Assembly: GCA_017442155.1 (NCBI GenBank)
Contig: JAFSAU010000008.1
Location: 1 to 64,000, forward strand
Direction of reading: 5' to 3'
Length of the DNA stretch: 64,000 nt
Source of the DNA: Clostridia bacterium
Lineage (GTDB): Bacteria; Bacillota; Clostridia; UMGS1883; UMGS1540
The notes under the pieces are model-generated. The model did not search any database. It had not been told where the DNA came from and saw only the letters and a program-made list of their open reading frames with translations. Made by a program: the position numbers and the translations under genes. Below are positions 48,612 to 64,000 of this stretch, one piece after another; positions within the stretch are counted from its first letter, which is position 1; each line of letters starts with the position of its first letter.

Positions 48612-48623
48612 GGAGGTTAGAGT

Positions 48624-49865
48624 ATGAAAAGAATTTTCAGCACACTTATATGCACATGTATGCTTATGGGTATAGTGAGCATTCCGGCTATGGCAGCCTC
48701 AAAAAGCCTGCCTGACGAAATAAAAGCTATTGCGGTGGAGTATGAATGGGAAGTTTTAAAACTGATTAATATCGAACGTGCAAACGTCGGCCTTCAGTCA
48801 TTATCTATGGTGTCTGACCTTCAGGCATCGTGCGATGTTCGTGCAGTTGAACTGGAAACATCATTTTCACACACCAGACCTGACGGATCCGGTTGTTATA
48901 CAACAATACCGAAATCATTCCCGCATAAAGGTACGGGCGAAAATGCGGCAAAAGGGCAGACCAGTCCCGAACAGGTAGTAGAATCGTGGATGAATAGCTC
49001 CGGTCACCGTGCAAATATTTTAAACTTTGCAGCCGGATATATGGGAGTCGGATATGCCGAGAAAGAAAACACATGGATACAGCAGTTTGCAGCCCGTGAT
49101 ACGATTGTAGACTGTAAGGTGAGCACCGACCAAAGAAGCTTAAATGCAAGAGAAATTTTAGAAGTTTATCTCATTCTGACAACAGCAAACGGCTATATTT
49201 CATATATGCCCCTTTCCTTTGAGGCGATGAAGGAAGAAAATGGTAACTACACACCGAGAATCAACGCACCCAATCTTCCTGTATTTACATACAGATATGG
49301 TCCTGCAACACAAAGCCCCACACCTCCGGTACAGGACGAAGACGCCGAAGAGATTTCCTTTATTGATGTAAGACCCGATGCCTACTACGCTTCGGCAGTA
49401 AACTGGGCGGTAGAAAAAAAGATTACCTCGGGAACATCCGACACCACTTTCTCGCCGGATGACACCTGTACCAGAGCGCAAATTCTGACTTTTCTGTGGC
49501 GCGCGGTAGGCGCACCCAAAGCGGAAGGTACGAATCCGTTTACGGATGTCAGCAGCGGCCACTATTATTATGATGCCGCTTTGTGGGCATATCAGAAGGG
49601 TATGGTAAACAGAGGTAAGTTTAGTGCGGCTGCACCCTGTACACGAGCGTCAACGGTTATGTATCTTTGGAAGAACGCAGGCTCGCCTGATGTGGGTACT
49701 GTGGGCACTTTTACAGACGTGACTGCTGATGCTGATTACGCAAAGGCGGTTAGCTGGGCGGTACAAAACGGTGTTACCTCCGGTACAAGTGATTCAATCT
49801 TCTCCCCCGATATGACTTGCACAAGAGGACAAATTGTAACTTTTTTAAACAGAGCGATAAAATAA
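48624..49865 (+). CDS. SLH-anchored CAP/SCP domain protein
   Basis: A signal peptide (LICTCMLMGIVSIPAMAAS) is followed by a CAP (SCP/PR1) domain: LKLINIERANVGLQ, then FSHTRPDGSGCYTTI, GENAAKG, VESWMNSSGHRANIL and YMGVGYA. The His of FSHTRP, Glu of GENA and His of GHRANI match the family's conserved tetrad. Three SLH repeats nearly identical in build to those of the neighbouring proteins follow. CAP proteins outside bacteria bind lipids or act in defence; the bacterial function is not well settled. It is 12 bases after the preceding gene in the same operon. Confidence 0.88.
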   Translation: MKRIFSTLICTCMLMGIVSIPAMAASKSLPDEIKAIAVEYEWEVLKLINIERANVGLQSLSMVSDLQASCDVRAVELETSFSHTRPDGSGCYTTIPKSFPHKGTGENAAKGQTSPEQVVESWMNSSGHRANILNFAAGYMGVGYAEKENTWIQQFAARDTIVDCKVSTDQRSLNAREILEVYLILTTANGYISYMPLSFEAMKEENGNYTPRINAPNLPVFTYRYGPATQSPTPPVQDEDAEEISFIDVRPDAYYASAVNWAVEKKITSGTSDTTFSPDDTCTRAQILTFLWRAVGAPKAEGTNPFTDVSSGHYYYDAALWAYQKGMVNRGKFSAAAPCTRASTVMYLWKNAGSPDVGTVGTFTDVTADADYAKAVSWAVQNGVTSGTSDSIFSPDMTCTRGQIVTFLNRAIK

Positions 49866-49901
49866 ATTATAAAAAATTATGAAATAAAGGAGAACATCAA
49901 T

Positions 49902-51050
49902 ATGAAAAAAATAATAGGTTTAATTCTTACGGCGGTTTTACTTCTTTCAACAGCGATTACATCATATGCAGTGGTAGATTATCTGGACGAGGCAATTGAT
50001 GCTGTAAAAGCAAAGAAGGACACAATAACGGTATATAACGATATGAGCGAGGATGATTTTAAAGCTGCAGTGCAGGCGCTTATTCCGGAAGAGTATAACA
50101 TTACGTTAGACTATGACTACACCTCTAATTTTAAGGTTTATAACGCAACAACAGAAAAAGACGGCTCTGTTTCTGCAAATTTTCTTTTCACACAGAAGAC
50201 CGGAGAAAAATATGATTTTACAAGGCATTATTTAGTGCGCATTGTAATTCCGAAGGCAGGTGTGGATGTTGATGCAGCGGTCGTGCTCGAAGAGGATGTA
50301 AATAATGTACTGAGCGCATTGGATGTTATGAATATGAGCAACATGACGGGCTACATAACTGTACGTGAAGTTGCGCAAGCTGCGTGCAAAAACGGAACTG
50401 TTCTCGGATGGAAGGACGGTGCTGTAGATATCGAAAAGGCAACAACAGAAAAGGCCGGTTACTTTAAAGGCACATTACGTGCAGTAAACGGCGTGGCAGA
50501 AACCGATATAGATGTAAGGTTGACCATTCCGCAGCTTTGTAGCTGTAACGATGTCAGCAAAAACGATTATTTTGCAGAAGCTGTTGAATGGGCATTGCAA
50601 AGAAATATAACAACAGGCACATCTGCAACACATTTTTCACCGCATGACACTTGCACAAGAGCGCAGATTCTCACATTTTTGTGGAGAGCTGTAAAGCCGC
50701 CTGTATCGACGATAGAAAATCCGTTCACAGATGTAAGCGGCAGTCACTATTATTACTATCCTGCCATGTGGGCATATGAGAAGGGCATGGTAAGCGGAAA
50801 TGCATTTTCGGCAGATACACCTTGTACCCGTGCATCAACTGTTATGTATCTCTGGAAGAATGCAGGCTCACCCGATGTGGATGCTGTCGGCACATTTATC
50901 GATGTACCTAAAAATGCCGATTATGCAAAAGCAGTCGCCTGGGCGGTACAAAATGGTATTACCGCAGGTACAAGTGCGAATACATTTTCACCTGATGACA
51001 CCTGTACAAGAGGTCAAATAGTAACATTCCTGCAAAGAGCAGTTAAGTAA
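49902..51050 (+). CDS. SLH surface protein with short unknown N-terminal domain
   Basis: A signal peptide (IIGLILTAVLLLSTAITSYA) precedes a ~170-residue domain that I cannot assign, built of KDTITVYNDMSEDDFKAA and TTEKDGSVSANFLFTQK-type segments. Three SLH repeats follow (FAEAVEWALQRNITTGTS, FTDVSGSHYYYYPAMWAYEK, ADYAKAVAWAVQNGITAGTS). The SLH part is a close paralogue of the ones in the two preceding genes, so the three share the same wall anchor. It ends the MerR-promoted operon. Confidence 0.8.
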   Translation: MKKIIGLILTAVLLLSTAITSYAVVDYLDEAIDAVKAKKDTITVYNDMSEDDFKAAVQALIPEEYNITLDYDYTSNFKVYNATTEKDGSVSANFLFTQKTGEKYDFTRHYLVRIVIPKAGVDVDAAVVLEEDVNNVLSALDVMNMSNMTGYITVREVAQAACKNGTVLGWKDGAVDIEKATTEKAGYFKGTLRAVNGVAETDIDVRLTIPQLCSCNDVSKNDYFAEAVEWALQRNITTGTSATHFSPHDTCTRAQILTFLWRAVKPPVSTIENPFTDVSGSHYYYYPAMWAYEKGMVSGNAFSADTPCTRASTVMYLWKNAGSPDVDAVGTFIDVPKNADYAKAVAWAVQNGITAGTSANTFSPDDTCTRGQIVTFLQRAVK

Positions 51051-51201: not shown

Positions 51202-52038
51202 TCAGTATTTTTTAGTTTTGAGCGAGCTTTCCGTATCCTCAATAGAAGAGAGCGTTTTGGGGGATTGCTGATATACAATATGAAAATATAGGGCATCAAT
51301 AATAGAAAGTTGGGCAATTCTTGAATTGAGTGCCAAAATATTATACTGGGTTTCTTCGGAGGAAGTGTAAAGAACTAAGTCGCTATGCTTTTGAATCGGG
51401 GACTTTCCTTTATTTGTGATACAAATTGTTGTTGCACCATGCTCCCGTGCCGTCTGCATTGCTTCAATTACATCCTTGGAAGAGCCGGAATGGGATATGC
51501 CGATGGCCACATCACCGGGGGAAAGATGCGCCGCGGCAATCATCTGCATATGGTTATCCGTGTACGCAAATGCGGTGTATCCTGCACGCAGCAACTTATG
51601 TCCCGCGTCAATTGCCACTGAAGCAGAGTTTCCGAGACCGATTACAATAATTTTGCCGGCGGCCATAATGGCATCTGCCGCGGACTGCAGTACATCTGCA
51701 TCCAGCACTTTTTTCGTGCGCTCCAGAGAGCAATATATATCATTGCAGACCTTTTCGTATATTTCAAATGCGCTATCCTCTGCGGTCATGTGTGCGTTTA
51801 CAATGGTACTTTTGGTTTCGCGGGCAAGCGCGATTTTTAATTCCTGGTAACCGGTGAATCCTAAATGCTGAGAGAAACGAACGATGGTTGCTTCACTGCA
51901 GATGGCTTTTTCCGCAAGTTCCACAATAGAAAGGGGGAGAATTTCTCCCGGATGCTCTAAAATCCAGTGGGCAACTTTTTTTTCCGCCTTTCCCATTTCG
52001 TCTAATAAAACTTTGATTTTTAAAGTGACTTTATTCAT
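51202..52038 (-). CDS. RpiR/MurR-family transcriptional regulator with SIS domain
   Basis: The N-terminal ~75 residues are the RpiR helix-turn-helix (KKVAHWILEHPGEILPLSI, then ATIVRFSQHLGFTGYQEL). A C-terminal SIS domain binds phosphosugars (VIGLGNSASVAIDAGHKLL, GDVAIGISHSGSSKDVIEAM). Such proteins usually repress sugar catabolism until a sugar phosphate binds. It lies just downstream of the catabolic operon on the same strand with its own promoter, and is the likely regulator of that operon. ATG 52038 is six bases from GGGAG; ATG 52044 directly abuts it. Confidence 0.93.
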   Translation of the reverse strand: MNKVTLKIKVLLDEMGKAEKKVAHWILEHPGEILPLSIVELAEKAICSEATIVRFSQHLGFTGYQELKIALARETKSTIVNAHMTAEDSAFEIYEKVCNDIYCSLERTKKVLDADVLQSAADAIMAAGKIIVIGLGNSASVAIDAGHKLLRAGYTAFAYTDNHMQMIAAAHLSPGDVAIGISHSGSSKDVIEAMQTAREHGATTICITNKGKSPIQKHSDLVLYTSSEETQYNILALNSRIAQLSIIDALYFHIVYQQSPKTLSSIEDTESSLKTKKY

Positions 52039-52058
52039 ACGCATCTCCCGGTGTAGAC

Positions 52059-52308: not shown

Positions 52309-53319
52309 TTATTTTTTCAGTTCCGCTACAAATTTATCTACATAAAAATCTTCTTTAATATATTCGTGCTTGCCTTCAAAAACCGTAAAGTCCGTCCGGC
52401 TTTTGTCCGGCAAGGAAGCAGAAAGCTTATCAAATTGCATTTGCACATTTCCGGGTTCAAATGTGCGGTCTGCATCACCGACAGCAAGACACAGATACCG
52501 GGGATACACAAGCTGTGCAACTTCATTATCCAAAAAGGTCTTCCCTGAATTTTGCCAAGTCCAATCGGGTCTTGCATAGGTAAAACGATCGTTGTACTGA
52601 GAGCAGGAAAGTGCACTACGGATTCGCGTGTCGGCAGCGGCAGTAAATAAGGTGTAAAATCCACCGTAGGAAAGACCTGTCATACCTATTCTGTATGTAT
52701 CAATATTCTCTTTGGCAACAAAGTAGTCGATGGCTTTACGTATACCATACACTTCAATAGCCGTAATGGAAGAGCCAAGCTGTTTTAGCTTGCAATCCAT
52801 GTTCTCCCGGTTATACTCCGGTTTGGTTCCCGCAGGGCTCCACAAAAGAAGTTGCGGGGCAAAAACATTGATACCATGGTTAAATATTCGCATGACCATA
52901 TCGTTATAGTTTCCGCTTCCACTTTTGAAAAAGCCGGAAGCAACCTCAGGCGTACCCGAACCACCGTGCTGTACAATGGAAAACGGAAGCTTTTCGGATG
53001 TGTTGTGTTCAAAATATATGCCGTAAAACCGGATGCCGATAGGCAGGGTAAACAGCATACGGTAAATTTTGCCTTCATCTTCTTCGTGAATAAGGGTCTT
53101 CTCAACTGTGGGAAGACCATCATCCGGCTCTGTAAGCGGCCAACCGAGCATTTTCAAAAATTCCTTGCGATAGATTTCGGGATTCGACAGAATGTCTTTG
53201 CCCCTTGCCTCGCGCAAAACTGTAGACTCTGCTTGTTTTTTAGAAAGCAGAGTCTCAAGGGAATTTAAATAGGCTTCTCGAAAGGAAAAGCATTGTTCAT
53301 GTTCTTCAATATAGCGCAT
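52309..53319 (-). CDS. Alpha/beta hydrolase of acetyl-xylan-esterase type
   Basis: The 336-residue protein has the alpha/beta hydrolase layout: oxyanion-side QHGGSGTP, the nucleophile elbow MTGLSYGGFY (Ser), an Asp late in VGDADRTFEPGN and a His in FEGKHEYIKED. It lacks a signal peptide, so it works on substrates already in the cell. The family includes esterases that remove acetyl or other acyl groups from sugars. It is the last gene of the catabolic operon, 15 bases after the preceding hydrolase. Confidence 0.82.
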   Translation of the reverse strand: MRYIEEHEQCFSFREAYLNSLETLLSKKQAESTVLREARGKDILSNPEIYRKEFLKMLGWPLTEPDDGLPTVEKTLIHEEDEGKIYRMLFTLPIGIRFYGIYFEHNTSEKLPFSIVQHGGSGTPEVASGFFKSGSGNYNDMVMRIFNHGINVFAPQLLLWSPAGTKPEYNRENMDCKLKQLGSSITAIEVYGIRKAIDYFVAKENIDTYRIGMTGLSYGGFYTLFTAAADTRIRSALSCSQYNDRFTYARPDWTWQNSGKTFLDNEVAQLVYPRYLCLAVGDADRTFEPGNVQMQFDKLSASLPDKSRTDFTVFEGKHEYIKEDFYVDKFVAELKK

Positions 53320-53334
53320 CTCGTGCGTTCCTTT

Positions 53335-54087
53335 CTATTTACTGTACTTTTCAATAAACTCAATAATCGGTGTGTTATCCGTCAGACCATGGGGGTGGTG
53401 GTCCTTGCCGGGGCAAATGTATGTTTCCAGGATATTGCCTGCTTTTTCATAGGCTTCTTTGAGAAGCATGCCGTTTTCTTCGTATGGGACAACAGTGTCG
53501 CTGTCACCTACAACCATAATGGTGGGAATCTTGTTTTTTACAAGCTGAGGAAGATAATCCAGAGGATGGTGACGGAAAGAAAGCATGGCAATTTTATCCA
53601 TTTTTCTATGTTGTATAAATTCATCCACCATGCTTGGGGTGGTTTTGTTTCCGAGACCGAAGGGACAGGAAAGAAGGTTTATAACCGGCGCGTCTATGTA
53701 CATGCAGGAAACGGTTTCCGGGTGCTTTGCAGCAAGGAAAATTGCTTGCATACCGCCACAACTCATGCCAACAGGCACACACTTTTCGCAAAGTCCGTAT
53801 GTTTTATGAATATGATCCACAAAGGCCACCTGTGTTTCCGTAACCTCATCGGGACACCAGCGGGAAACATTGTTAATATGTGCAACATGCCAACCTTTGT
53901 TTAAAAGGGAAATTTCCACTTCCGGAAAAGCATTAAAATATTCGGTTTTTAAAATCCACTTTCCGTTTGCAGTACCTTCTTTGGGAAGAACAAGGACATA
54001 ATTCCTGCCCATAAAATTACCTTCAATAAACGAAAAACCTTTCCAGGTTTTTCCCCCTTCATCCACACAATAGTCAATCATGCTCAT
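53335..54087 (-). CDS. Alpha/beta hydrolase, first of a tandem pair
   Basis: The protein (250 residues) is a cytoplasmic alpha/beta hydrolase with the Ser elbow VPVGMSCGGMQAIF, Asp in VGDSDTVVPYEENG and His in CPGKDHHPHGL. It is a close paralogue of the next gene upstream (54154-54909), sharing VSRWCPDEVTETQ, ILSFRHHPLDYLPQL-type and EENG.LLKEAYEKAGNILET segments. The start is ATG 54087, correctly spaced from AAGGAGG; the longer frame to 54141 lacks a binding site. It probably removes an acyl group from a sugar, but the substrate is unknown. Confidence 0.82.
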   Translation of the reverse strand: MSMIDYCVDEGGKTWKGFSFIEGNFMGRNYVLVLPKEGTANGKWILKTEYFNAFPEVEISLLNKGWHVAHINNVSRWCPDEVTETQVAFVDHIHKTYGLCEKCVPVGMSCGGMQAIFLAAKHPETVSCMYIDAPVINLLSCPFGLGNKTTPSMVDEFIQHRKMDKIAMLSFRHHPLDYLPQLVKNKIPTIMVVGDSDTVVPYEENGMLLKEAYEKAGNILETYICPGKDHHPHGLTDNTPIIEFIEKYSK

Positions 54088-54153
54088 CGTATAAAATCCT
54101 CCTTGCATCTTTTCCGATGTTATAAATCTTTGGGTATACAAAAAGATTCTTTT

Positions 54154-54909
54154 CTATTTGCTGTATCGCTCAATAAAGGATACAATGGGTGTGTTGTCTT
54201 CAAGTCCGTGGGGATGATGTCCTCTGCCGGGACACACATATGTTTCAAGAATATTGCCGGCTTTTTCGTAAGCCTCTTTGAGAAGAAGACCGTTTTCTTC
54301 GTAGGGAAGGGCGGTGTCGCACGCACCGACTACCATAATAGTAGGAATTTTGTTTTCAACAAGTTGGGGAAGATAATCCAAGGGGTGGTGTCGGAAGGAA
54401 AGAATCGCAATCTCATCAATATTTCTATGTGCAATAAATTCTTTTGTTAACGCTACCGTATCGTTCGGATTTTTCTTGCCAAAACCAAAGGGCGAGGAAA
54501 GAAAGTTTAAAGCCGGCGAGTCTATGAACATACAAGAAACGGTTTCCGGGTACTTTGCCGCAAGAAATATAGCCTGCATACCGCCGCAGCTCATGCCTAT
54601 GGGCACACAAGTTTCCGAGAGATTAAATTGACTATGTACGAAATGGACAAAAGCGGCCTGTGTTTCGGTGACTTCGTCGGGACACCAACGGGATACGTTG
54701 TGAATGTGTGCTACGTGATAGCCACGTTCTAAAAGGGCAAATTCTGTTTCGGGAAATGCGCCGAAATATTCTGTTTTCAGCACCCATTTTCCGTTTGCAG
54801 GGACATCTTTGGGACAAACAAGGATATAAGGCTGCCCCATGAATTCACCTTCATGGTAAGGATATTTATGCCATTCGCTCGGAAATTCTCTATTATTCCA
54901 TTTCTTCAT
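54154..54909 (-). CDS. Alpha/beta hydrolase, second of a tandem pair
   Basis: The 251-residue paralogue of the neighbouring hydrolase has the same triad: Ser in IGMSCGGMQAIF, Asp in VGACDTALPYEENG and His in CPGRGHHPHGL. Most differences lie in the N-terminal part and the cap region (LNFLSSPFGFGKKNPNDT), which usually shapes the substrate pocket, so the two may act on different acyl positions of one compound. No signal peptide is present. It follows the Etf gene by 24 bases. Confidence 0.82.
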   Translation of the reverse strand: MKKWNNREFPSEWHKYPYHEGEFMGQPYILVCPKDVPANGKWVLKTEYFGAFPETEFALLERGYHVAHIHNVSRWCPDEVTETQAAFVHFVHSQFNLSETCVPIGMSCGGMQAIFLAAKYPETVSCMFIDSPALNFLSSPFGFGKKNPNDTVALTKEFIAHRNIDEIAILSFRHHPLDYLPQLVENKIPTIMVVGACDTALPYEENGLLLKEAYEKAGNILETYVCPGRGHHPHGLEDNTPIVSFIERYSK

Positions 54910-54932
54910 ATCTATCTACTCCTTTTTATGAA

Positions 54933-56285
54933 TTAAAATGCATCGACAATGCCGTAATCGGCATATTCGAATATACGGGCATTTTTATCGGGATTGATGG
55001 CGATTACAGTATCGGCGTTTTCGATGGCACAGGTGTGATGCACTGCCCCCGAAATACCAATTGCAATATAAATTTTAGGGCTTACACTTTTTCCTGTTAG
55101 TCCCACCTGCAAATCGTAAGGCATTTTCCCAGTATCTACGAGTCCTCTGGAGGCTGCCAGCTCTGCTCCGATTTCATTGGCGAAGGCATAAAGTGTATCT
55201 ATTCTGTCAGCAATTCCACGACCGCCGGACACGATAATATCAGAGCTTGCCGTTTTTGTGCGGACAGTTGCCATTTGCGGTTTTGTAAGGCATTTGATTT
55301 TGGCATATACATTCCCGCCCCGGGCAGGACGATACATAATAAGGGTATCTTCTTCAGCCGCAAGCTGTGTACAGTCTGCACAAAGTCCCGTCTGCAGCAA
55401 GGCAGCGGCAATAGGTGCATTTCTTCTGCCCCAAAGATCTCCGTTCCATAGGACAACGCCGGGTTTTTCCTCCTGCACTTTTTTTACGATAGAATAAACA
55501 TCGGTTTTTTCTATCAGTACTACATTTTCTGCAATCTCGCAGGCTTTTTCAAACACTTCTTTACCGATTGCCCAGGCACAGGGTAACATTTTTTGCTTTG
55601 TGTGCACATTTTTTTTAATCACTTTTTGCTGTTGCAGGATGGTCAGAAGTGGCTTTAGCGCATCCATGGAAATAAAGCGGCAACGGCGTTTCCCTTTTTC
55701 ATTTTCAAAAGTTTCCAGAACCCGTGTTGGGGAGCCCGCAAGGCCGCACCGCTTTATATCGCAATTCAGCTCTTTGTTTGTGAGAAGACAGACTTCTCCA
55801 AGCTTAGAAAAGATGCTGGGAAAGCGTAAGGTATAGCTGCGTTCAACGGTTACAAGAGCCGGAAAAGTTGTGGATTCAGTACCAAGCCGGGTTTTTGCTG
55901 TTATGCCGTTCTCGTTTTTTTCCACCTGCAGTGCATTTGTTATAAGCGAAATGCCAAGCATGGCGGAAAGCATTGGTCCCACCTGTGCCGTATCACCATC
56001 CACACTTTGCCTGCCACAGAGAATCAAATCCGGATGGAGCGTTTGGATTGCTTTTGACAAAATGTAGGCAGTGGCCAGTGTATCGGAGCCTACAAAGAGG
56101 GAATCCGTTATAAGGATAACACGAACCCCTAATCTTGTCAGCGGGAGGAGCACGGTTTCCGTTGAGGATGGCCCCATGGATACAACGGTGACATCATCGG
56201 ATAATTGCAGTGCACACTCTATTGCTGACGCATCAAAGGGATTTATTTCTCCTTTAATGACCTTTACACATACAACTATTTTCAT
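54933..56285 (-). CDS. Fused electron transfer flavoprotein, EtfB-EtfA in one chain
   Basis: The 450-residue protein joins a beta-like half and an alpha-like half. Residues 1-215 are EtfB-like: GEINPFDASAIECAL and the signature GRQSVDGDTAQVGPMLS (91-107). Residues 230-450 are EtfA-like: an AMP/FAD-side domain, SGGRGI (353-358), LAASRGLVDTGKMPYDLQVG and the FAD-binding GLTGKSVSPKIYIAIGISGA (395-414), ending ADYGIVDAF. Separate subunits usually total about 580 residues, so the fusion is compact. It should carry electrons to or from a flavin dehydrogenase. The operon contains a GlcD-like FAD oxidase and a GlcF-like Fe-S protein, its natural partners. It overlaps the NagB-like gene by four bases. 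Confidence 0.88.
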   Translation of the reverse strand: MKIVVCVKVIKGEINPFDASAIECALQLSDDVTVVSMGPSSTETVLLPLTRLGVRVILITDSLFVGSDTLATAYILSKAIQTLHPDLILCGRQSVDGDTAQVGPMLSAMLGISLITNALQVEKNENGITAKTRLGTESTTFPALVTVERSYTLRFPSIFSKLGEVCLLTNKELNCDIKRCGLAGSPTRVLETFENEKGKRRCRFISMDALKPLLTILQQQKVIKKNVHTKQKMLPCAWAIGKEVFEKACEIAENVVLIEKTDVYSIVKKVQEEKPGVVLWNGDLWGRRNAPIAAALLQTGLCADCTQLAAEEDTLIMYRPARGGNVYAKIKCLTKPQMATVRTKTASSDIIVSGGRGIADRIDTLYAFANEIGAELAASRGLVDTGKMPYDLQVGLTGKSVSPKIYIAIGISGAVHHTCAIENADTVIAINPDKNARIFEYADYGIVDAF

Positions 56286-57094
56286 TGTTCGTTTTCAAAC
56301 AAACCTTCTGCGACTGTGTCAATCGCACAGAAGGTTACCGAAGGATGATTTTGGAGCAGGCTTGCAGGAACCTGCGGCTGGATTTTACCGAAAAGAGCAT
56401 GCTTCACAATACCGTGCTGCCATGGTCTGTTCAAAGCTACATATATAGAACGGGAGGCGAGAATCTGCTGCATGCCGATGGTAATGCACCATTCGGGCAT
56501 TCCTCTAAGGTCGCCGCGCTGATACCCGTAGGCATTAATGGTTCTTGTCTCTCTGGATATGGGGAGAACCCTGGTGCCAAGATTTCCAAAGGCTTCTGCT
56601 GTAATGGGGTCATCCTCTTCGGCAGCCTCGTTAAATGCAAGATGCCCATTTATCCCCAGTCCGCCGAGGCATAAATCTACGCCGCCCAAGGCCGCAATCA
56701 GATCATCGTATTCCTTTTCTTTACTGGGCGCAGGAAAATGGCGCTGGCTTTCCGGCATGACAAGTTCCGGGGAAACCTGCGAATAAAATTCCGTGTTCAT
56801 ACGGCGACGGAAGCTCATGGGATGGTCGGCCCCGATGCATTCCGTGGGTGTGATCATATATTCGTCCATGTTGAAAAAATGAACGTTTTTGAGAGATACA
56901 CCAAGTTGATTTACGAGCCTCGCAAAAATCGGATACTGGTCTGTAGGACCTACCGGCACAATCATCACGGTTGTTTTACCGGCGGCGTTGTTTTTCATAA
57001 CCGTGTCCAGCATGGCGAGTGCCATGTCAAAATACACATCCCATTCCTGCGGTACAGTTTTAAAGAGAATATTTTCACGAATTTTTCTTTCCAT
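56282..57094 (-). CDS. NagB-fold sugar phosphate isomerase/deaminase with altered catalytic residues
   Basis: The 270-residue protein resembles glucosamine-6-phosphate deaminase: VPVGPTDQYPIF, FFNMDEYM (Asp77, matching the proton-transfer Asp72 of E. coli NagB) and GHLAFNEAAEED (His151, Glu156). The residue matching E. coli Asp141 is Asn149 (LGINGH), and the lysine region near position 208 reads ALNRPWQHGIV, without an evident Lys. It may therefore isomerise a different sugar phosphate. ATG 57094 is chosen for its AAGGAG site; the frame runs on to 57151 but overlaps nagA. The gene sits between nagA and the Etf gene. Confidence 0.8.
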   Translation of the reverse strand: MERKIRENILFKTVPQEWDVYFDMALAMLDTVMKNNAAGKTTVMIVPVGPTDQYPIFARLVNQLGVSLKNVHFFNMDEYMITPTECIGADHPMSFRRRMNTEFYSQVSPELVMPESQRHFPAPSKEKEYDDLIAALGGVDLCLGGLGINGHLAFNEAAEEDDPITAEAFGNLGTRVLPISRETRTINAYGYQRGDLRGMPEWCITIGMQQILASRSIYVALNRPWQHGIVKHALFGKIQPQVPASLLQNHPSVTFCAIDTVAEGLFENEQ

Positions 57095-57113
57095 TGCAAT
57101 GTCTCCTTTTTCT

Positions 57114-58301
57114 TTATTGTGTGCGTAAAGTGTCATATATAATCTTTCCATCTGTAATTGTCATTTTTACGTTGAGGTCGTGGTCTAAAATACAAATGTC
57201 TGCAAGCTTTCCGACTTCTATGGAACCTATACGACCGTCCTCGCCAATGATTTTTGCCGGGGTAAGCGATGCCATAGTAACTGCATCATGCAAAGGCACG
57301 CCGGCATCTACCACAAGGTTTCGGATCATTTGAGAAAGAGGCTGAATACTGCCTGCCAATCGGCTGCCGTCCGGCAGACGGGCAACCCCGTCCGAAACTA
57401 AGAATCTCTGCGCTTCTGCATCCTGCTTTCTGCCGAGAATGTAAAGTGTGTCACTGACGGGCATTCCTCCGGCACGTAGACAGTCGGAAACAATGCAGAG
57501 CTTATCTGCACTTTTGCATTTGCAAATCAGCTTTACCATGTCAGGTGTAATGTGATGGTTATCGGCAATGAATTCTACCGTGAGTCTGTCATCGGTAAGC
57601 CCCAGTTCACAAAGACCTACATTCCTGACACCGTCGCGCATGGATACGGTGGACATCGTGCACCAAAGATGTGTACAATGGGATAAGCCTGCTTCAATAA
57701 CAGGCATAATGCTGGGCTTATCGCCATCATCATGCCCGCCGCAAACCACAATACCTGCTTTTGTCAGTGCAGCGGTCATTTCGGCTGCACCGTCCAGTTC
57801 GGGTGCGATGGTTACGGTTTTGATGCAATCCCGGTTATCCAGAATAAATTGATAGGAATCTCGGGCAGGTACCCGAAGAAATTGTTCGGGTTGTGCCCCT
57901 TTATGCTTCAGCGAGATATATGGTCCCTCGATATGCGCACCCAGAATACGGCAGGGAAGAGATGGGCAAGCCTTGTATTGGCGCACTATGGAAAGCATTT
58001 TTGTGATTTGTTCCACCGGAGCCGTTACAGAGGTGGCCACGAGGGATGTGGTCCCACTTTGGCTGTGAAATCGGATTGCGTTATCAAATGCATCTGCCTC
58101 CGCATCCATAAAATCCCCGCTGCCTCCGCCGTGTGTATGTATATCGACAAAGCCGGGGCAAACGTATAAATCACTTGCATCGATAACGGTTTCATCTTGA
58201 AGGACAGTGCCCGGGGCAACAAACCTGTTTCCGTTTATCAGGACGTCGGCTTTTTCTATAACACCGGTATTTGTTACAATATTTCCGTTTTTTATAATCA
58301 T
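57114..58301 (-). CDS. nagA: N-acetylglucosamine-6-phosphate deacetylase
   Basis: NagA removes acetate from GlcNAc-6-phosphate in the cytoplasm. The 395-residue amidohydrolase has the metal-binding FVDIHTHGGGSGDFMD, catalytic-side GAHIEGPYIS (Glu metal ligand), CGGHDDGD and LSHCTHLWCTMS (His ligands) and IVSDCLRAGGMP with the catalytic Asp. The HLFNAM motif usual in NagA reads HLWCTM. It is followed by the NagB-like gene, the ordinary GlcNAc order, but that partner is diverged, so the substrate may be a related N-acyl sugar phosphate. Confidence 0.88.
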   Translation of the reverse strand: MIIKNGNIVTNTGVIEKADVLINGNRFVAPGTVLQDETVIDASDLYVCPGFVDIHTHGGGSGDFMDAEADAFDNAIRFHSQSGTTSLVATSVTAPVEQITKMLSIVRQYKACPSLPCRILGAHIEGPYISLKHKGAQPEQFLRVPARDSYQFILDNRDCIKTVTIAPELDGAAEMTAALTKAGIVVCGGHDDGDKPSIMPVIEAGLSHCTHLWCTMSTVSMRDGVRNVGLCELGLTDDRLTVEFIADNHHITPDMVKLICKCKSADKLCIVSDCLRAGGMPVSDTLYILGRKQDAEAQRFLVSDGVARLPDGSRLAGSIQPLSQMIRNLVVDAGVPLHDAVTMASLTPAKIIGEDGRIGSIEVGKLADICILDHDLNVKMTITDGKIIYDTLRTQ

Positions 58302-58331
58302 AAAACCCTCTCCTTGTTTGTTTTATAAGGC

Positions 58332-59804
58332 CTATAGTTGGGAATTATATATGGGCTCTAAAGCTTCCTGAATCTTTTTATATTTGTTGTAAAGCTTCCG
58401 GTATTTCTCTGTGTTTTCGGGATTAGGATTTGTTTCGGTTACAGCAGAATTACATTTTTGCAGTGCATCTTTAAAATCTGAAAAAATATGCACTGCAACA
58501 CCTGCCAGCATAGCACTCCCGAAGGAAGAATCGGAATACTTCATTTCAACAAGCTTTATCCCAAGGGCATCGGAAATCATCTGCCGCCAAAGGGGACTTT
58601 TTCCGCCGCCGCCGATAATAACGGCACTATCTGCGTGTGAAATATTTAATTTTTCAAGAGTAAGCTTACAGTCAAGCATACTCATGGCAACGCCTTCCAA
58701 AACTGCTCTTGCAAAATGTGCCTTTGTATGGTGGGAGCGAATGCCTACAAAATCCGCACACAAATTGGGGTTTGCGTATGGCGTCAGTTCACCGTTTAAG
58801 TATGGATGGAATACAAGTCCGTCGCAACCAATGCCGATTTTTTCTGCCATTTCATCCAGTTTTGCATACGCCTCACCAAAGGTATCACGAAACCACCTGT
58901 AGGAGGCGGCACAGGATTTAGTGCCGGTGCCGGGATAGAAAAGACCGTCAATCACGTGGGAGTAATTGACAAGATGTCTGCAAGGGTAGGGGGTATCGGT
59001 GACAACACATGTCCTACCGGCGGTGGCAAGTTTGATTGTCATATCGCCCCTGGAAACTGCGCCCGAAGCAAATACTTCCATGACCGTGTCTGTTGTGCCG
59101 CAAAGCACCGGTGTGCCTTCTGAAAGCCCCGTAAGTCCGGCTGCTTCTTTCGTGACAGTTCCAGCAATATCCGTGGGCTTTACCACACGGGGAAGGAGCT
59201 TAGGGTCCATGTCCAGAATGCCGCAAAGCTCCTGGCTCCAAGCCATGGTATTTACATCAAAAAGCATGGAACCCTCTGCCTCGATAAAGTCGGTTACATA
59301 ATCCCCCGTCAGAAAATGCCGCACATAGTCTTTGGAAAACATAATTTTCCGGACCTTCTTCCAGTTTTCCGGCTCGTTATTTTTAATCCATAAAAGTGCC
59401 GGGAGAGACCAAATTGTATCCGGGCTGTGCAGAACCTGCTTTTCTATACACGATGCATAATTTTCCTTCAGGTAGGCCACTTCTTGAACGCTTCTTGTAT
59501 CTGTCCAATATATAGCGGGACGAATCACATGAAAATCCCCGTCGAGAATTACGGCGGTGTGTGTTGCCGCATCCAGAGAAATGGCGGCAATTTCCTGGGG
59601 TCGGATACCGCTCTTCTTTAAAACCGCCGAAATATTTTCGATGGTTACCTGCACCCAGTCCTGCGGATTTTGTTCTGAGAATCCGGCTTTCGGATACAGT
59701 GTAGGATATTCACGGGTGCTGGTGGCACAGATTTCTCCGGTTTCACTAAGCAGCGTGGCTTTAGACGCACCGCCACCAAAATCAATTCCGAGTAAATACT
59801 TCAT
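58332..59804 (-). CDS. FGGY-family carbohydrate kinase, xylulokinase-like
   Basis: The 490-residue protein has the FGGY fold: LLGIDFGGGASKATLL (phosphate loop 1), GTTDTVMEVFASGA (phosphate loop 2) and VIIGGGGKSPLWRQMISDAL near the C-terminus. The catalytic Asp region reads ISLDAATHTAVIL where xylulokinases have SGQMHG, so a sugar other than xylulose is possible. It phosphorylates a sugar or polyol with ATP. It follows the IolB-like gene by 12 bases in the operon. Confidence 0.88.
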   Translation of the reverse strand: MKYLLGIDFGGGASKATLLSETGEICATSTREYPTLYPKAGFSEQNPQDWVQVTIENISAVLKKSGIRPQEIAAISLDAATHTAVILDGDFHVIRPAIYWTDTRSVQEVAYLKENYASCIEKQVLHSPDTIWSLPALLWIKNNEPENWKKVRKIMFSKDYVRHFLTGDYVTDFIEAEGSMLFDVNTMAWSQELCGILDMDPKLLPRVVKPTDIAGTVTKEAAGLTGLSEGTPVLCGTTDTVMEVFASGAVSRGDMTIKLATAGRTCVVTDTPYPCRHLVNYSHVIDGLFYPGTGTKSCAASYRWFRDTFGEAYAKLDEMAEKIGIGCDGLVFHPYLNGELTPYANPNLCADFVGIRSHHTKAHFARAVLEGVAMSMLDCKLTLEKLNISHADSAVIIGGGGKSPLWRQMISDALGIKLVEMKYSDSSFGSAMLAGVAVHIFSDFKDALQKCNSAVTETNPNPENTEKYRKLYNKYKKIQEALEPIYNSQL

Positions 59805-59816
59805 ACCTATAATCCT

Positions 59817-60611
59817 TTATTTGGTGTTAAGCCATTCATGGTTTGGGTCTGTGGTCATGAAGAAGCCACGGTCCCTGCCGGCCATAATCCACAGATAGTA
59901 GTTCGTATATCCGGGAGCAACGTGGAAGGGATGGTATCCGCGCGGGATTTCCACAAAGTCGCCGGTTTTTACGGTGTATGTTTCATCAATATCACCTTCA
60001 AGGGTATACACCTTTTGAATGCCGAAGCCCTGCGGCTTATCGAATTCATAATAATATATTTCCTCCGTCGCAGCTTCTGTTGGCATATTATCGTCATCGT
60101 GTTTGTGCGGCGGATAGCTGGACCATTGTCCGCCTTTTACAAAGGCTTCGCCGATATAAAGCATTTCTGCGTCCACTCTTTCATCCAGAACGAAATGAGC
60201 TTCCCGTTCCCATCCGGGCTTGCCTAAATTTTTGATAATCACGTCCTCGGGCTTGACGAGAGTCGGTGTACCTACCTTTGTGGAGGGGGATTTCGCTACG
60301 GCAATTACGGCTTCGCCTATAGCAGTGACAGTAAACGGGATGTTAGCCGGAATATAAACACAGGTGGCAGGTCCGTCAAATACGGTTTTGCGTTTGCCGA
60401 CATTTTCAAAGGCAAAGCCATCGCCCGTTACGGTGCAGCTTCCGCCTAAAATAACAAGTGCATATTCCTTGTTTTCCTCTCTGTAGGACTTGGTATCTCC
60501 GTCCGCAAGGCGTAGCATGTCCATTTCTACTTTTTTACAGGTACTGTTTTCTTTCGTGATAATCTCACTTTTCCCCCGGTTTTTAGTCCATGTTTTCTTC
60601 AAATTCATCAT
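59817..60611 (-). CDS. iolB: IolB-family 5-deoxy-glucuronate isomerase
   Basis: IolB interconverts 5-deoxy-glucuronate and 2-deoxy-5-keto-gluconate in inositol catabolism. The 264-residue protein is a double cupin with the metal ligands in SSYPPHKHDDDN, EEIYYYEFDKPQGFG and GDFVEIPRGYHPFHVAPGY, all standard for IolB. ATG 60611 is chosen (AAAGGAG seven bases upstream); GTG 60617 directly follows that site. It overlaps the PfkB gene by about 29 bases. The usual inositol genes for the upper pathway (iolG, iolE, iolD) are not in the window, so the isomerase may have another sugar acid. Confidence 0.9.
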   Translation of the reverse strand: MMNLKKTWTKNRGKSEIITKENSTCKKVEMDMLRLADGDTKSYREENKEYALVILGGSCTVTGDGFAFENVGKRKTVFDGPATCVYIPANIPFTVTAIGEAVIAVAKSPSTKVGTPTLVKPEDVIIKNLGKPGWEREAHFVLDERVDAEMLYIGEAFVKGGQWSSYPPHKHDDDNMPTEAATEEIYYYEFDKPQGFGIQKVYTLEGDIDETYTVKTGDFVEIPRGYHPFHVAPGYTNYYLWIMAGRDRGFFMTTDPNHEWLNTK

Positions 60612-61512
60612 ATCCACGCTCCTTTAAAAATTGTATAACTTCTTTTCGGGTGGGCACGGCGGCCCGGGCGCCGATTTTCGTACATTTAATTGCAGAAACG
60701 GCACTGGAGAACACAGCGGCTTCGAAAAAGTCCAGACCTGCAGTGATTGCATAGGCAAAAGCACCGTGGAACACATCTCCGGAGCCGTTTGTATCCATTG
60801 CGGTAACCGGAAAGGCAGGGTATGCTACAACATCTTTCCCGTCATAAAGAATGCCGCCCTTTTTTCCTTGCGTAATGACAACAATATCGGGAGAAAATGA
60901 AGCAAATAGCTTTTTTGCTGCAGTTTCCGCAGTCTTTTCACCGGAAAAACCAAGGGCGAATTCCTCGGAGGGAATCAGAATATCCACGTAAGGAAGAAGG
61001 TCACCGACGCCCTCGTAAAGCCCACCTGCATCATATAAAACCCGTGTGCCACTATCTTTTGCAAGCTTTGCAGCTTCAAGTGCCGCAGGGAGCTCGTTCC
61101 CGTCTATCATAAGAATGTCAGAATGTCGGACGGCTTCCTTTTGTTTCTCTGAAAGCTGCAAAGGGGGGAGAGTACCGCGGTGATAGACACACGTCCTGGT
61201 AGCAGTTTCCTCCGAAAGGCATATATATGAAGAAAACGAAGTATACCCCGGCTGAAATTCTACCAGCGATGTTTCTACTTCGTATTTCTTTAAATCTTCC
61301 ATTAAAAATATACCGGCACTGTCGTCCGTAAGTACGCCTATATAGGCGCAGTTTGCCCCAAGCCTTGCAGCAGTTGCAAGGCTTGTAGCACAAGGACCGC
61401 CGCCACACCGTGAAATGGCGGTGGCTCCAATTTTAGTATCCTCTTTCGGATAGTGTGGTATTGTTAAAAGAATGTCGCAAACATTTGCGCCGATTCCTAC
61501 GATACGTTTCAT
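60583..61512 (-). CDS. PfkB-family carbohydrate kinase
   Basis: The 309-residue protein belongs to the ribokinase/PfkB family. It has SRCGGGPCATSLATAARLGA in the sugar site, VVITQGKKGG, and the anion-hole and catalytic-base motif DTNGSGDVFHGAF, with catalytic Asp246. Beside IolB and a class II aldolase it is in the position of IolC, which phosphorylates 2-deoxy-5-keto-gluconate, but it is shorter than typical IolC. It overlaps the aldolase stop by four bases and the IolB gene as well, so the three are translationally coupled. Confidence 0.88.
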   Translation of the reverse strand: MKRIVGIGANVCDILLTIPHYPKEDTKIGATAISRCGGGPCATSLATAARLGANCAYIGVLTDDSAGIFLMEDLKKYEVETSLVEFQPGYTSFSSYICLSEETATRTCVYHRGTLPPLQLSEKQKEAVRHSDILMIDGNELPAALEAAKLAKDSGTRVLYDAGGLYEGVGDLLPYVDILIPSEEFALGFSGEKTAETAAKKLFASFSPDIVVITQGKKGGILYDGKDVVAYPAFPVTAMDTNGSGDVFHGAFAYAITAGLDFFEAAVFSSAVSAIKCTKIGARAAVPTRKEVIQFLKERGYDEFEENMD

Positions 61513-62336
61513 GCTTTGTTCTCCGCTCCTAAAAGCTTTATTTTATCCTTTGCAAATGCTGCTACGTTTTTCACAGCATCCTTCATAAACATATCAATTG
61601 CATAGATGTCACGTGAGGTTTCAAACACCTTATCGAGGAAGGCGTAACAAAGATCGGTTCCGAAGTTGACTTTGCGGATACCGGCGGCGATAGAGGCACG
61701 GATTTCCTCGTCGGGAACGCCACTGCCACCGTGAAGAACAAGAGGAATTCTTACGGCTTCCTTTATATCACGAATTCTTTTAATATCCAGCTTCGGTGCT
61801 TTTTTATATCTGCCGTGTGCTGTACCGACCATAACGGCCAGTGCCACAACACTGGTTTCGTTTACAAACTGTATAGCCTCGTCTACTTTTGTATATTCGC
61901 CCATTTCGGCGTCATTAACGCTTCCCACGTGTCCCAGTTCGCCTTCCACGGGAATATCCATAGGCTGACAAAGGTCAGTTACAGTTTTAGTGATGGCAAT
62001 ATTTTGCTCCAGCGGATAGGCGGAGGCATCAATCATAACGCCTGTACAGCCGTAGCGCACAGCCTTTGCCACTTCCGGATAGCCTGCACCGTGGTCCAGA
62101 TGGAAGCACACGGGTACTTTTGCCTTTTTTGCCGCGGCCAATACAATGGGAGCAACGTAATATGCTTCGCCGTTTGTGAAAAGTCTTGAATAATTTTGTA
62201 AAATTACGGGAGCATGCAACGCTTCTGCCGCCTCTATAATGCCCATGACCGTCTCCATGTTGTATACGTTAAAGGCAGGGATGGCGAAAGAGCCTTTTTC
62301 GGCAATGTCCAAAATTTCTTTCAGATTTACAAGCAT
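61509..62336 (-). CDS. Class II fructose-bisphosphate-aldolase-family enzyme
   Basis: The 275-residue protein has the zinc-aldolase motifs: catalytic Asp and His in CFHLDHGAGYPEV, VEGELGHVGS, Zn-His in VGTAHGRYK and LVLHGGSGVPDEE, and the phosphate-binding GIRKVNFGTDL. Members include FbaA, GatY and IolJ. Next to an IolC-like kinase and IolB, an IolJ-type cleavage giving DHAP plus a small aldehyde fits best, but this is inferred from context. It overlaps the Fe-S gene by ten bases. Confidence 0.93.
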   Translation of the reverse strand: MLVNLKEILDIAEKGSFAIPAFNVYNMETVMGIIEAAEALHAPVILQNYSRLFTNGEAYYVAPIVLAAAKKAKVPVCFHLDHGAGYPEVAKAVRYGCTGVMIDASAYPLEQNIAITKTVTDLCQPMDIPVEGELGHVGSVNDAEMGEYTKVDEAIQFVNETSVVALAVMVGTAHGRYKKAPKLDIKRIRDIKEAVRIPLVLHGGSGVPDEEIRASIAAGIRKVNFGTDLCYAFLDKVFETSRDIYAIDMFMKDAVKNVAAFAKDKIKLLGAENKA

Positions 62337-63397
62337 TTTAATATAACCTCCTCAATCTTCATAAGTTCGATGCCTGCCGGGCGGGTTTTGGATAACAGTA
62401 CGTATTCTGCGGGACAGGCGGTAACCATAATTTTGGCGTCAATATTTTTGGCATTCAGCCATCGGTTTTCTGCCACCTTTTCCATAACGTGCGGCATATA
62501 CTGATGCATGATAAGATTCCCCGCAAGCATGGTTTCCTTGCCGTGTAAAAACATTTCACGCACCTCACCACAGGCAGATAAAATGGAACGAATCGGCTCG
62601 ATTTCTTCTAAGTCCCGGGCCAAAAGGGGACTGTCTTGAGGCGTGAAAACCAGATCCTGCGCGCGGACCGGAAGTTTTCCGCTTTGGATTAAATCGGCTA
62701 ACAATTCTGTGAAGGTCAGGACCTCGGGCGCAAGTGTAATACCCCATTCCTTATATTCACGCTTCATAACCTTTGCATCTGCCGGGTCGTAGCAGATAAC
62801 CTTTTTATACTTTGCAAGTGTAGCAGCACATTTTTCCATTACAGTCTTAGTCTCTGCGGCGGCACCGATTAAGAATGACATAGAATAGCCGCTGCTTGGT
62901 TCATCCTGTAGCACCGTGAAGTCTACACCGGCCTTCTGCAGAAGCTGTACGGCCATCTTGGCACAACCCATTGCCCGGGTATCCTCACCGATAAAAAAGA
63001 GCGTGTCGCTATCTGCAAAGTCGGGGATTTTATTTTCATTTTTGAGTCTGTAAACGTTGCCCGTTTCCTGAAAATTTGCAAGCATCTTCAGGACATAGGG
63101 CGGGAGCTTTCCGTCAAGTGCCGCTCCAAGTCTTGCTTCCTTTGTAAACATAACGGGATCCCAACCGGTGGTGCAGTCCGCAACGCAGCCGCCGCAAAGG
63201 GCACATTCGTAAACGTTTGCAACAATATCTTCCGAAAATTCAACGGCTTCCCGTGCTACGAGGGAAAGCCCCAGTGCTCTGGCTCTGGCCGTATGCCGTT
63301 CCAGACCTGTAGCATTCCCAATCGGGCAGATGTGGTGACACATCCAGCAAAACCGGCAGGATTCAATATGTTCTCTTGATTTCTGTGTAAATTGCAT
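62327..63397 (-). CDS. Fe-S oxidoreductase subunit, GlcF/GlpC-like
   Basis: The ~356-residue protein has two N-terminal 4Fe-4S motifs (CRFCWMCHHICP and CALCGGCVADC) and a C-terminal region with Cys in GCAKMAVQL and ITACPAEY-type stretches, like the CCG domains of GlcF, GlpC and LldE-type proteins. It should pass electrons from the FAD oxidase encoded next to it to a further acceptor, here plausibly the fused Etf. The start is ATG 63397 because GGGAGGT lies six bases upstream; ATG 63412 overlaps that site and the preceding stop. Confidence 0.85.
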   Translation of the reverse strand: MQFTQKSREHIESCRFCWMCHHICPIGNATGLERHTARARALGLSLVAREAVEFSEDIVANVYECALCGGCVADCTTGWDPVMFTKEARLGAALDGKLPPYVLKMLANFQETGNVYRLKNENKIPDFADSDTLFFIGEDTRAMGCAKMAVQLLQKAGVDFTVLQDEPSSGYSMSFLIGAAAETKTVMEKCAATLAKYKKVICYDPADAKVMKREYKEWGITLAPEVLTFTELLADLIQSGKLPVRAQDLVFTPQDSPLLARDLEEIEPIRSILSACGEVREMFLHGKETMLAGNLIMHQYMPHVMEKVAENRWLNAKNIDAKIMVTACPAEYVLLSKTRPAGIELMKIEEVILKCL

Positions 63398-63411
63398 TTG
63401 TCTACCTCCCA

Positions 63412-64000
63412 TTAAAGCCCAAGCTTGAACGGATTCATAATTCCGTTGGGGTCAAGCTGTTTTTTGATTCCTTCAAAAACCTGCATGGCGGGACCATACT
63501 GCTCCTTCATAAGTCTGCCGAGCTTGATACCCACGCCGTGGTGGTCATTGACAACGCCGCCGTTTTTAAGGGCAGCCCGTACGCCGCAATTCCAGATTTC
63601 CTGATGCAGACGGAATGCCTCATGCGGATCCTGTGGCACGTCCTTGCCGTCTACAATAAATCTGTCATAAATCATGCAACCCCACTCATACCAATGGGAG
63701 AAATGTGCAATAAATTGTGCCTGCGGGAAGTTGGTCTCAATGGCTTCCTTCATTGCCCAGTAAATTTTTTCAATTTTATCATAAGGAGCGATGGTATCCA
63801 TTGTACCGTAGCACTGGGGGATATCCATCATGTGGCCGGGATAGAAGAAGGTGATCTTTTCTTTCCACCATTTTTCGCCGTATTCCGAACCCAGGTCTTC
63901 TGCACCATATTTTTTAAAGGTAGAGAGAAGCAGCTTTTCCTCTAAGGCTACCATTTCGCTAACGCCCTCAATGGCAAGGTTCATAAAGGCACCCGGCTTT
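63412..64000 (-). CDS. FAD-linked oxidase, GlcD-like, C-terminal part
   Basis: The frame stays open to the window edge (five more in-frame codons past ATG 63984), so the N-terminal FAD-binding domain lies outside. The visible ~195 residues are the substrate/cap domain of FAD-linked oxidases (glycolate oxidase GlcD, D-lactate and alkyl-DHAP synthase relatives): AHFSHWYEWGCMIYDRF, NGGVVNDHHGVGIKLGRLM and the typical ending GIKKQLDPNGIMNPFKL. VNDHHGVG holds the conserved His pair near the active site. It likely oxidises a hydroxy acid or a sugar-derived alcohol and hands electrons to the Fe-S protein and the fused Etf. The substrate is unknown. Confidence 0.88.
   Translation of the reverse strand, partial: KPGAFMNLAIEGVSEMVALEEKLLLSTFKKYGAEDLGSEYGEKWWKEKITFFYPGHMMDIPQCYGTMDTIAPYDKIEKIYWAMKEAIETNFPQAQFIAHFSHWYEWGCMIYDRFIVDGKDVPQDPHEAFRLHQEIWNCGVRAALKNGGVVNDHHGVGIKLGRLMKEQYGPAMQVFEGIKKQLDPNGIMNPFKLGL

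Follow-up and report, generated by a model that had tools for sequence, protein, structure and literature searches.

What kind of catabolism would place a flavoprotein resembling alkyl-dihydroxyacetone phosphate (alkyl-DHAP) synthase, together with a bifurcating-type electron-transferring flavoprotein (Etf), among sugar kinases, an aldolase and isomerases? The question is raised by a minus-strand operon in a 64,000-nucleotide stretch from a Clostridia bacterium (the window; positions 1 to 64,000 of contig JAFSAU010000008.1, assembly GCA_017442155.1), which reaches the window end. The contig is 210 kb long, and the assembly comprises 2.43 Mb in 51 contigs and is 92% complete. An earlier sequence-only reading had described a catabolic operon combining a GlcD/GlcF/Etf oxidation module with an inositol-type lower pathway and three esterases, and did not recognise the combination as any described pathway. 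The operon is a conserved system and apparently an undescribed catabolic operon, with a constant core and a variable set of accompanying genes.

Conservation of a seven-gene core

The core consists of seven genes, encoding GlcD, GlcF, a class II aldolase, a PfkB-family kinase, an IolB-type cupin, an FGGY kinase and a fused EtfB-EtfA chain (EtfBA). Scanning 84,980 species genomes with a GlcD profile gave 276 relatives, of which 80 loci were returned; nearly all of these are from metagenome-assembled gut Clostridia, and where a title gives the host it is a ruminant, with goat, sheep, yak, buffalo, deer or rumen in many of them. Six or all seven of the core genes were present in 60 of 87 distinct loci, and many of the others are broken off by contig ends. 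Co-occurrence of the seven genes across dozens of genomes is far beyond chance. The sequence-only reading had named a lack of joint conservation as the outcome that would overturn it, and the neighbourhood search instead found the genes recurring together.

Full-length relatives of the 450-amino-acid EtfBA were found in 12 of 147 sampled genomes, the window's own included, with 48-77% identity, and in all 11 relatives with a neighbourhood that was read the fused gene lies inside the operon, accompanied by the same genes as far as the contigs extend. The GlcD of the operon was found in 25 of 391 sampled genomes of the window's class (about 6% of species), belonging to about ten families. In this sample it is missing from one genome of the same genus (G002) and from two of the same family (G003 and G005), and the distribution is therefore patchy.

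Literature searches with the gene combination, covering mostly open-access papers, found no description of it, which is in line with the earlier reading, and no match was found in the viral contigs searched. Each family is known, and family scans agree with the assignments made before (RpiR, hydrolases, fused Etf, NagA, NagB-like, FGGY, IolB, PfkB, aldolase, GlcF and GlcD); the combination and the type of GlcD active site appear new to us. The whole operon was also observed, with Clostridia-like identity, in a metagenome-assembled genome labelled Planctomycetia (L109, 10010 onward), which is either a horizontal transfer or a misbinned contig.

The GlcD flavoprotein and its electron partners

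GlcD contains the FAD_binding_4 and FAD-oxidase_C domains (119 and 82 bits, both over cut-off) and its identity to the window protein is 83-94% in the 80 loci. In 18 loci its median protein identity is 88%, that of seven neighbours including RpiR is 53-67%, and at four-fold degenerate sites, which are saturated, GlcD and its neighbours alike show 31-34% identity. Because such protein identity stands alongside saturated synonymous sites, GlcD is under exceptional purifying selection and is by far the most constrained protein of the operon. Recent spread or exchange of the gene is excluded as the cause of the high identity, since its synonymous sites are as saturated as those of its neighbours.

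The best solved relatives of GlcD are the alkyl-DHAP synthases (2uuu, 4bby), followed by D-lactate dehydrogenase. Arg419, Tyr578, His616 and His617 of the synthase (4bby numbering), which we presume to have functional roles in that enzyme, correspond to R278, Y400, H449 and H450 of the window protein and are invariant in 17 diverse loci, while the position of His615, the first of the synthase HHH, is occupied by Asp or Glu. The motifs GHxGDGNxH and EHG, which we take to be the metal-binding motifs of D-2-hydroxyacid dehydrogenases, are replaced by HFSHWYEWG and NDHHG, invariant in 17 sequences; the first motif does not end in His, and the Glu of EHG has become His. As a statement of mechanism the label GlcD-like is not supported. 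The synthase is a single redox-neutral lipid enzyme, whereas the protein described here is encoded with GlcF and an Etf in a sugar operon. An AlphaFold model of GlcD had a mean pLDDT of 43 and was not used.

EtfBA contains both Etf halves, each of them shortened. The top Etf matches (CarE, C. difficile Etf, A. fermentans Etf and LctBC) are all bifurcating, the motif CGRQxxDGDTAQVGP of the A. fermentans beta subunit (4kpu_B) is kept, and AlphaFold gave a confident single-chain Etf (pLDDT 86, pTM 0.84). Judged from its sequence, EtfBA is a complete, compact Etf of the bifurcating type, and by its type it could couple NAD+ to ferredoxin; as regards the type of Etf, this agrees with the bifurcating electron flow that the sequence-only reading had considered. 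The nearest known complex is the lactate dehydrogenase (NAD+, ferredoxin) LctBCD of Acetobacterium woodii (7qh2), in which an FAD_binding_4/FAD-oxidase_C flavoprotein likewise joins a bifurcating Etf and with whose LctB and LctC subunits EtfBA aligns. The operon differs from it in having a shortened Etf in one chain, a GlcF-like Fe-S protein that is always added, and an alkyl-DHAP-synthase-like site in place of the metal site. We tentatively suggest that GlcD-GlcF-EtfBA might be an electron-bifurcating or confurcating sugar dehydrogenase of a new kind, in which an alkyl-DHAP-synthase-type flavoprotein has turned into an NAD+/ferredoxin-linked oxidase of an intermediate common to many sugars, opening a new fermentative pathway of herbivore guts.

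In several loci a protein of the malate/lactate/sulfolactate-dehydrogenase family is encoded immediately after EtfBA (L089 10771-11892, L083 18898-20019, L098 15075-16196). More distant flavoproteins occur elsewhere: in L138 (10215-14479), an alkyl-DHAP-synthase-like GlcD of 35% identity and its Fe-S-like companion stand next to a GlpA-like FAD protein and an FGGY kinase, which suggests a wider link of such flavoproteins with FGGY kinases, and in L135 (397-9650) a GlcD and GlcF pair of this kind lies near genes that, by eye, resemble those of fatty-acid synthesis.

A proposed pathway and its alternatives

After sulfofructose kinase, the solved relatives of PfkB are ribokinase and ketohexokinase, and it also matches YdjH (3h49). 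The IolB protein scores 251 bits against a cut-off of 205, and its H171, H173, E186 and H229, which we take from family knowledge to be the cupin metal ligands, are invariant in 16 sequences. FGGY barely passes the XylB model (TIGR01312; 382.0 bits, cut-off 380.25), and since a separate, stronger XylB (574 bits) is encoded elsewhere in the genome, this score does not tie it to xylulose. NagA is over its cut-off (258 against 226 bits). The NagB-like protein, which is Glucosamine_iso-like, reaches 89 bits against the NagB equivalog cut-off of 237; it keeps in the main the catalytic Asp, His, Glu and Arg, with one Asp changed to Asn, while the GGTP phosphate loop and the phosphate-contacting lysine are replaced.

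Around the core, the accessory genes change. A sulfoquinovose-isomerase-like protein (Isom) is found in 40 of the 60 near-complete loci, mostly directly ahead of GlcD; DUF4867 occurs in 27, an aldose-1-epimerase-like protein in 14, and NagA and the NagB-like protein in nine each. Six of the NagB-bearing loci are without Isom and three have both; the window operon itself has no Isom. Locus L095 has in addition a MurQ-like SIS protein (with a similar-looking one in L057), an N-acylglucosamine 2-epimerase-type protein (similar-looking in L054) and a mannose-6-phosphate-isomerase-type cupin with relatives in L076 and L077. The variation of the entry genes around a constant core indicates that the pathway is entered by different routes. 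No clear rule linking the IolB type to the other genes was found. The three alpha/beta hydrolases, read earlier as a de-esterification step, are confined to the window's genus and had to be rejected as part of the conserved system, two being present otherwise only in sister species and the third nowhere else.

With a probability of about one half, we propose that the operon lets anaerobic gut Clostridia use a sugar derivative by ketose formation, phosphorylation at C1, cleavage to DHAP and an aldehyde, and Etf-linked oxidation. The steps, their order and the substrate are suggested by the gene families and neighbourhoods. The ketose would be formed through NagA deacylation and deamination with isomerisation by the NagB-like protein in the window operon, and by Isom in most other lineages; PfkB would then phosphorylate it next to the keto group, and the class II aldolase would split the product into an aldehyde and DHAP, the latter for glycolysis. 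A second aldose or aldehyde might be isomerised by the IolB-type cupin and phosphorylated by the xylulokinase-like FGGY. Finally, GlcD-GlcF would carry out a two-electron oxidation of an intermediate shared by all versions and deliver the electrons to EtfBA, and it is the place of this oxidation in the sequence that is least certain. The only carrier in which a completely read operon is without aldolase and PfkB (G138) has a separate three-gene unit Isom-aldolase-PfkB elsewhere, which supports ketose formation, phosphorylation and cleavage as one module.

The substrate is probably an acidic sugar or one modified in another way at C6; in the window's genus it is probably an N-acylated 2-amino form. 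Of the acylated or N-acylated sugar envisaged by the sequence-only reading, the N-acylated form fits the pair of NagA and NagB-like protein. Relatives outside the main group are informative in this respect. In L133, from another class of the phylum, a single operon encodes NagA, Gfo/Idh, NagB-like, xylose-isomerase-like, GlcD (71% identical), GlcF, aldolase, PfkB, IolB and FGGY, which connects the Gfo/Idh and xylose-isomerase-like genes lying divergently next to the window operon with the system. Besides RpiR, GlcD (58% identical) and GlcF, locus L134 encodes the aldolase, IolB and FGGY, and with them an iron alcohol dehydrogenase, a xylose-isomerase-like protein and a TRAP transporter. Organic acids are the usual cargo of TRAP transporters. 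The transporter of L134, together with hexuronate-type genes (UxaC- and KdgK-like, by eye) near the operon in L083/L147, points to an acid substrate; a gene resembling 2-keto-3-deoxy-6-phosphogluconate (KDPG) aldolase lies near the operon in three loci. A 54% identical GlcD occurs on a short contig (L146), and beyond these three the closest relatives of GlcD fall to about 35% identity and stand in other gene contexts.

Several observations weigh against the proposed pathway. The resemblances of PfkB, the aldolase, Isom and the NagB-like protein are remote and far under equivalog cut-offs, and the position of phosphorylation and the products of cleavage may differ. One linear route would not need as many as two kinases and two or three isomerases, the operon is without a transporter in most loci, L134 lacks PfkB and EtfBA in the stretch read, and the alkyl-DHAP-synthase-like site of GlcD matches no dehydrogenase compared here.

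In a more specific form of the proposal, which we consider doubtful, a keto-uronate would be phosphorylated at C1 by PfkB and cleaved to DHAP and tartronate semialdehyde, with NagA and the NagB-like protein acting on an N-acetylated amino-uronate, Isom or IolB on an ordinary uronate, and GlcD/GlcF/EtfBA oxidising a downstream hydroxy acid. Such a hexuronate or amino-hexuronate route is in line with the TRAP transporter, the KDPG-aldolase-, UxaC- and KdgK-like neighbours, the 5-deoxyglucuronate substrate of the IolB family, and a NagB-like protein that retains most catalytic residues without the phosphate contacts. However, the operon has no tartronate semialdehyde reductase, a conventional uronate route lies beside it, NagA family enzymes normally require a 6-phosphate, and GlcD is without the metal site of a hydroxyacid dehydrogenase. 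The last point also bears on the unlikely alternative that GlcD/GlcF/EtfBA is an ordinary Etf-linked D-2-hydroxyacid dehydrogenase of lactate or glycerate type, acting on a three-carbon product. The domain composition and the partner logic of the A. woodii Ldh-EtfAB, which is among the best Etf matches, would agree with this, but the metal ligands are replaced and the four synthase residues kept, glcD models give 194 bits against a cut-off of 568, and a conservation of 88% is odd for a generic lactate dehydrogenase.

Sulfosugar catabolism, in the form of a sulfo-Embden-Meyerhof-Parnas (sulfo-EMP) variant (isomerase, sulfofructose kinase, class II aldolase) with an oxidation branch, is improbable, even though sulfofructose kinase is the best solved match of PfkB and the Isom of another locus hits the SftI model, since this hit has 114 bits against a cut-off of 700 and the NagA/NagB versions would be senseless for sulfoquinovose. 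The sulfo-SFT and sulfo-EMP2 routes (PMC11968277) share with our loci DUF4867 (SftX of sulfo-SFT, present also in other sulfoglycolytic clusters), an SftI-like isomerase, a sulfofructose-kinase-like PfkB and a class II aldolase. Compared with those routes, the scores here are remote, no sulfosugar glycosidase (sulfoquinovosidase), sulfolactaldehyde enzyme or other C3-sulfonate handling, or sulfonate exporter was recognised in the core, and the oxidation module and NagA/NagB alternatives are additional. The largest DUF4867 cluster of that network study, as far as the available part tells, lies in FucI-like/FGGY 'aldose/ketose' neighbourhoods, which are unassigned to sulfosugars and in which the families of Isom, FGGY and DUF4867 occur together; our operon probably falls among them. 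The study is based on Pfam co-occurrence, and its available part proposes no pathway for the FucI-like/FGGY cluster and does not mention the GlcD/GlcF/EtfBA core (PMC11968277). A locus for myo-inositol (IolB, IolC, IolJ) in which the FAD oxidase is accidental has a very small probability and is refuted as far as sequence allows. The Anaerostipes lower pathway IolB-IolC-IolJ (PMC8355322) has the same logic of isomerase, PfkB kinase and class II aldolase leading to DHAP, IolB is over its equivalog cut-off, and the neighbouring genes include an IolG-like Gfo/Idh and one with a xylose-isomerase-like fold; but IolD above cut-off was found in none of ten carrier genomes and not at all in the window genome, PfkB has 103 bits against an IolC cut-off of 300, FGGY and GlcD/GlcF/EtfBA are added, and the oxidation module is conserved and hence not accidental. 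The inositol-type label therefore does not hold literally. Slighter still is the chance of a locus for N-acetylglucosamine (NagA, NagB, phosphofructokinase, aldolase) with additions, rejected in its version with an accidental oxidase. NagA passes its model, and a route from hexosamine to triose could be seen in the NagB-like protein, PfkB and aldolase, but the NagB-like protein, with its altered phosphate site, is present in a minority of loci, most loci are conserved without NagA/NagB, and a true NagB (275 bits) is encoded elsewhere in the genome. Both escapes left by the sequence-only reading, a known inositol or N-acetylglucosamine locus with an accidental oxidase, are thereby closed. Salvage of N-acetylmuramic acid or its anhydro form, considered for the MurQ-like SIS proteins of L095 and L057 and the levoglucosan-dehydrogenase-like Gfo/Idh, was dropped because too few loci support it. 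The YdjH/YdjI pair of E. coli resembles the proposed pathway in its kinase and aldolase, YdjI being the best solved aldolase match. To our knowledge, its cluster is without the GlcD/GlcF/EtfBA module, IolB and FGGY.

Gene layout, regulation and biological meaning

From the 5' side, the genes are ordered GlcD, GlcF, aldolase, PfkB, IolB, FGGY, NagA, NagB-like, EtfBA, three alpha/beta hydrolases and RpiR. The operon had been described as ten genes and a partial eleventh on one strand; presence, place and strand were correct, and the count is 11 complete genes at 52309-64000 with the C-terminal end of GlcD as a partial twelfth. The overlaps of 4-10 bases then reported are found at EtfBA/NagB-like and PfkB/aldolase (4 bp each) and aldolase/GlcF (10 bp), to which 1 bp at GlcF/GlcD and two overlaps of about 35-38 bp, contingent on the choice of the longest open reading frame, have to be added.

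Table 1. Positions of the operon genes and the regulator gene in the window.
Feature	Position	Strand	Remarks
GlcD-like FAD flavoprotein, C-terminal part	63412..64000	-	start at about contig position 64836, beyond the window
GlcF-like protein, two CxxCxxCxxxC 4Fe-4S motifs	62327..63412	-	adjoins GlcD in nearly all loci
Class II ketose-phosphate aldolase	61509..62336	-	closest solved relative YdjI (6ofu); conserved core gene
PfkB-family sugar kinase	60583..61512	-	closest solved relative sulfofructose kinase (7ag6); conserved core gene
IolB-type cupin isomerase	59817..60617	-	family model and invariant probable metal ligands; conserved core gene
FGGY sugar kinase, xylulokinase type	58332..59804	-	family scan; conserved core gene
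NagA-type N-acetyl sugar deacetylase	57114..58301	-	accessory; minority of loci; present too in outgroup L133
NagB-like isomerising deaminase	56282..57151	-	accessory; most catalytic residues kept, phosphate site altered
Fused shortened EtfB-EtfA, one 450-aa chain, bifurcating type	54933..56285	-	EtfB and EtfA domains; core gene
Alpha/beta hydrolase 1	54154..54909	-	lineage-specific; otherwise only in sister species L034/L045
Alpha/beta hydrolase 2	53335..54141	-	lineage-specific; otherwise only in sister species
Alpha/beta hydrolase 3	52309..53319	-	window only; no match in any fetched locus
RpiR-family regulator	51202..52044	-	orthologue usually divergent from operon, with shared operator between

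The operon is probably controlled by its RpiR regulator. In 36 of 79 loci the region ahead of the operon contains the palindrome TGAAAATnATTTTCA with at most one mismatch, where 0.1 loci would be expected from first-order Markov controls; the motif was drawn from the same regions in which it was counted, and the control covers chance and not the choice of motif. The commonest dyad occurred 28 times in the real regions compared with twice in shuffled ones. In most cases the site is placed between RpiR and the first gene, and two copies are frequent; in the window genome a site with two mismatches is present between GlcD and the AmpT-like gene, beyond the window. We infer that RpiR binds this predicted operator. 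A search of ten carriers for further operator sites, aimed at a transporter, gave few outside the operon, about the number for control patterns, and identified no transporter.

The sequence-only reading had expected a transporter upstream of position 64000. Among the genes read past the window end none was found; the rest of GlcD is followed there by a divergent unit of an AmpT-like gene, a Gfo/Idh dehydrogenase (best model levoglucosan dehydrogenase, with a score far under cut-off) and a xylose-isomerase-like protein. The AmpT-like protein has no Pfam match, and its name is our own assumption. In three other loci a DMT-type-looking membrane carrier and a serine-hydrolase-like protein are paired beside or within the operon (L050 6702-8506, L080 18116-19939, L114 6688-8529); as the pair of L050 sits between operator and Isom, this carrier is a transporter candidate. 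Proteins of 671-677 amino acids without a Pfam match lie beside or within the operon in L099 (6898-8931) and L094 (13334-15349).

Past the divergent unit, beyond the window, lies a row of large secreted proteins of about 1000 amino acids each (L002, 6161-18365); the two that were scanned have S-layer and carbohydrate-binding (CBM_4_9) domains and no catalytic domain by Pfam, and these proteins are possibly undescribed cell-wall glycoside hydrolases. At 45114-51050 of the window, three successive secreted proteins have repeated C-terminal segments which in translation resemble, by eye, S-layer homology repeats, and one of them has a CAP-like N-terminal half.

The extreme constraint on GlcD marks it as the clear first enzyme for biochemists to assay. 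Should the flavoprotein complex prove to be what its sequence suggests, electron bifurcation would be extended to carbohydrate oxidation with an unusual active site, and DUF4867 and the FGGY/FucI-like gene clusters of open role would gain a context. Since about 6% of the sampled species of the class carry GlcD, a widespread share of the carbon flow in herbivore guts may pass through an undescribed pathway.

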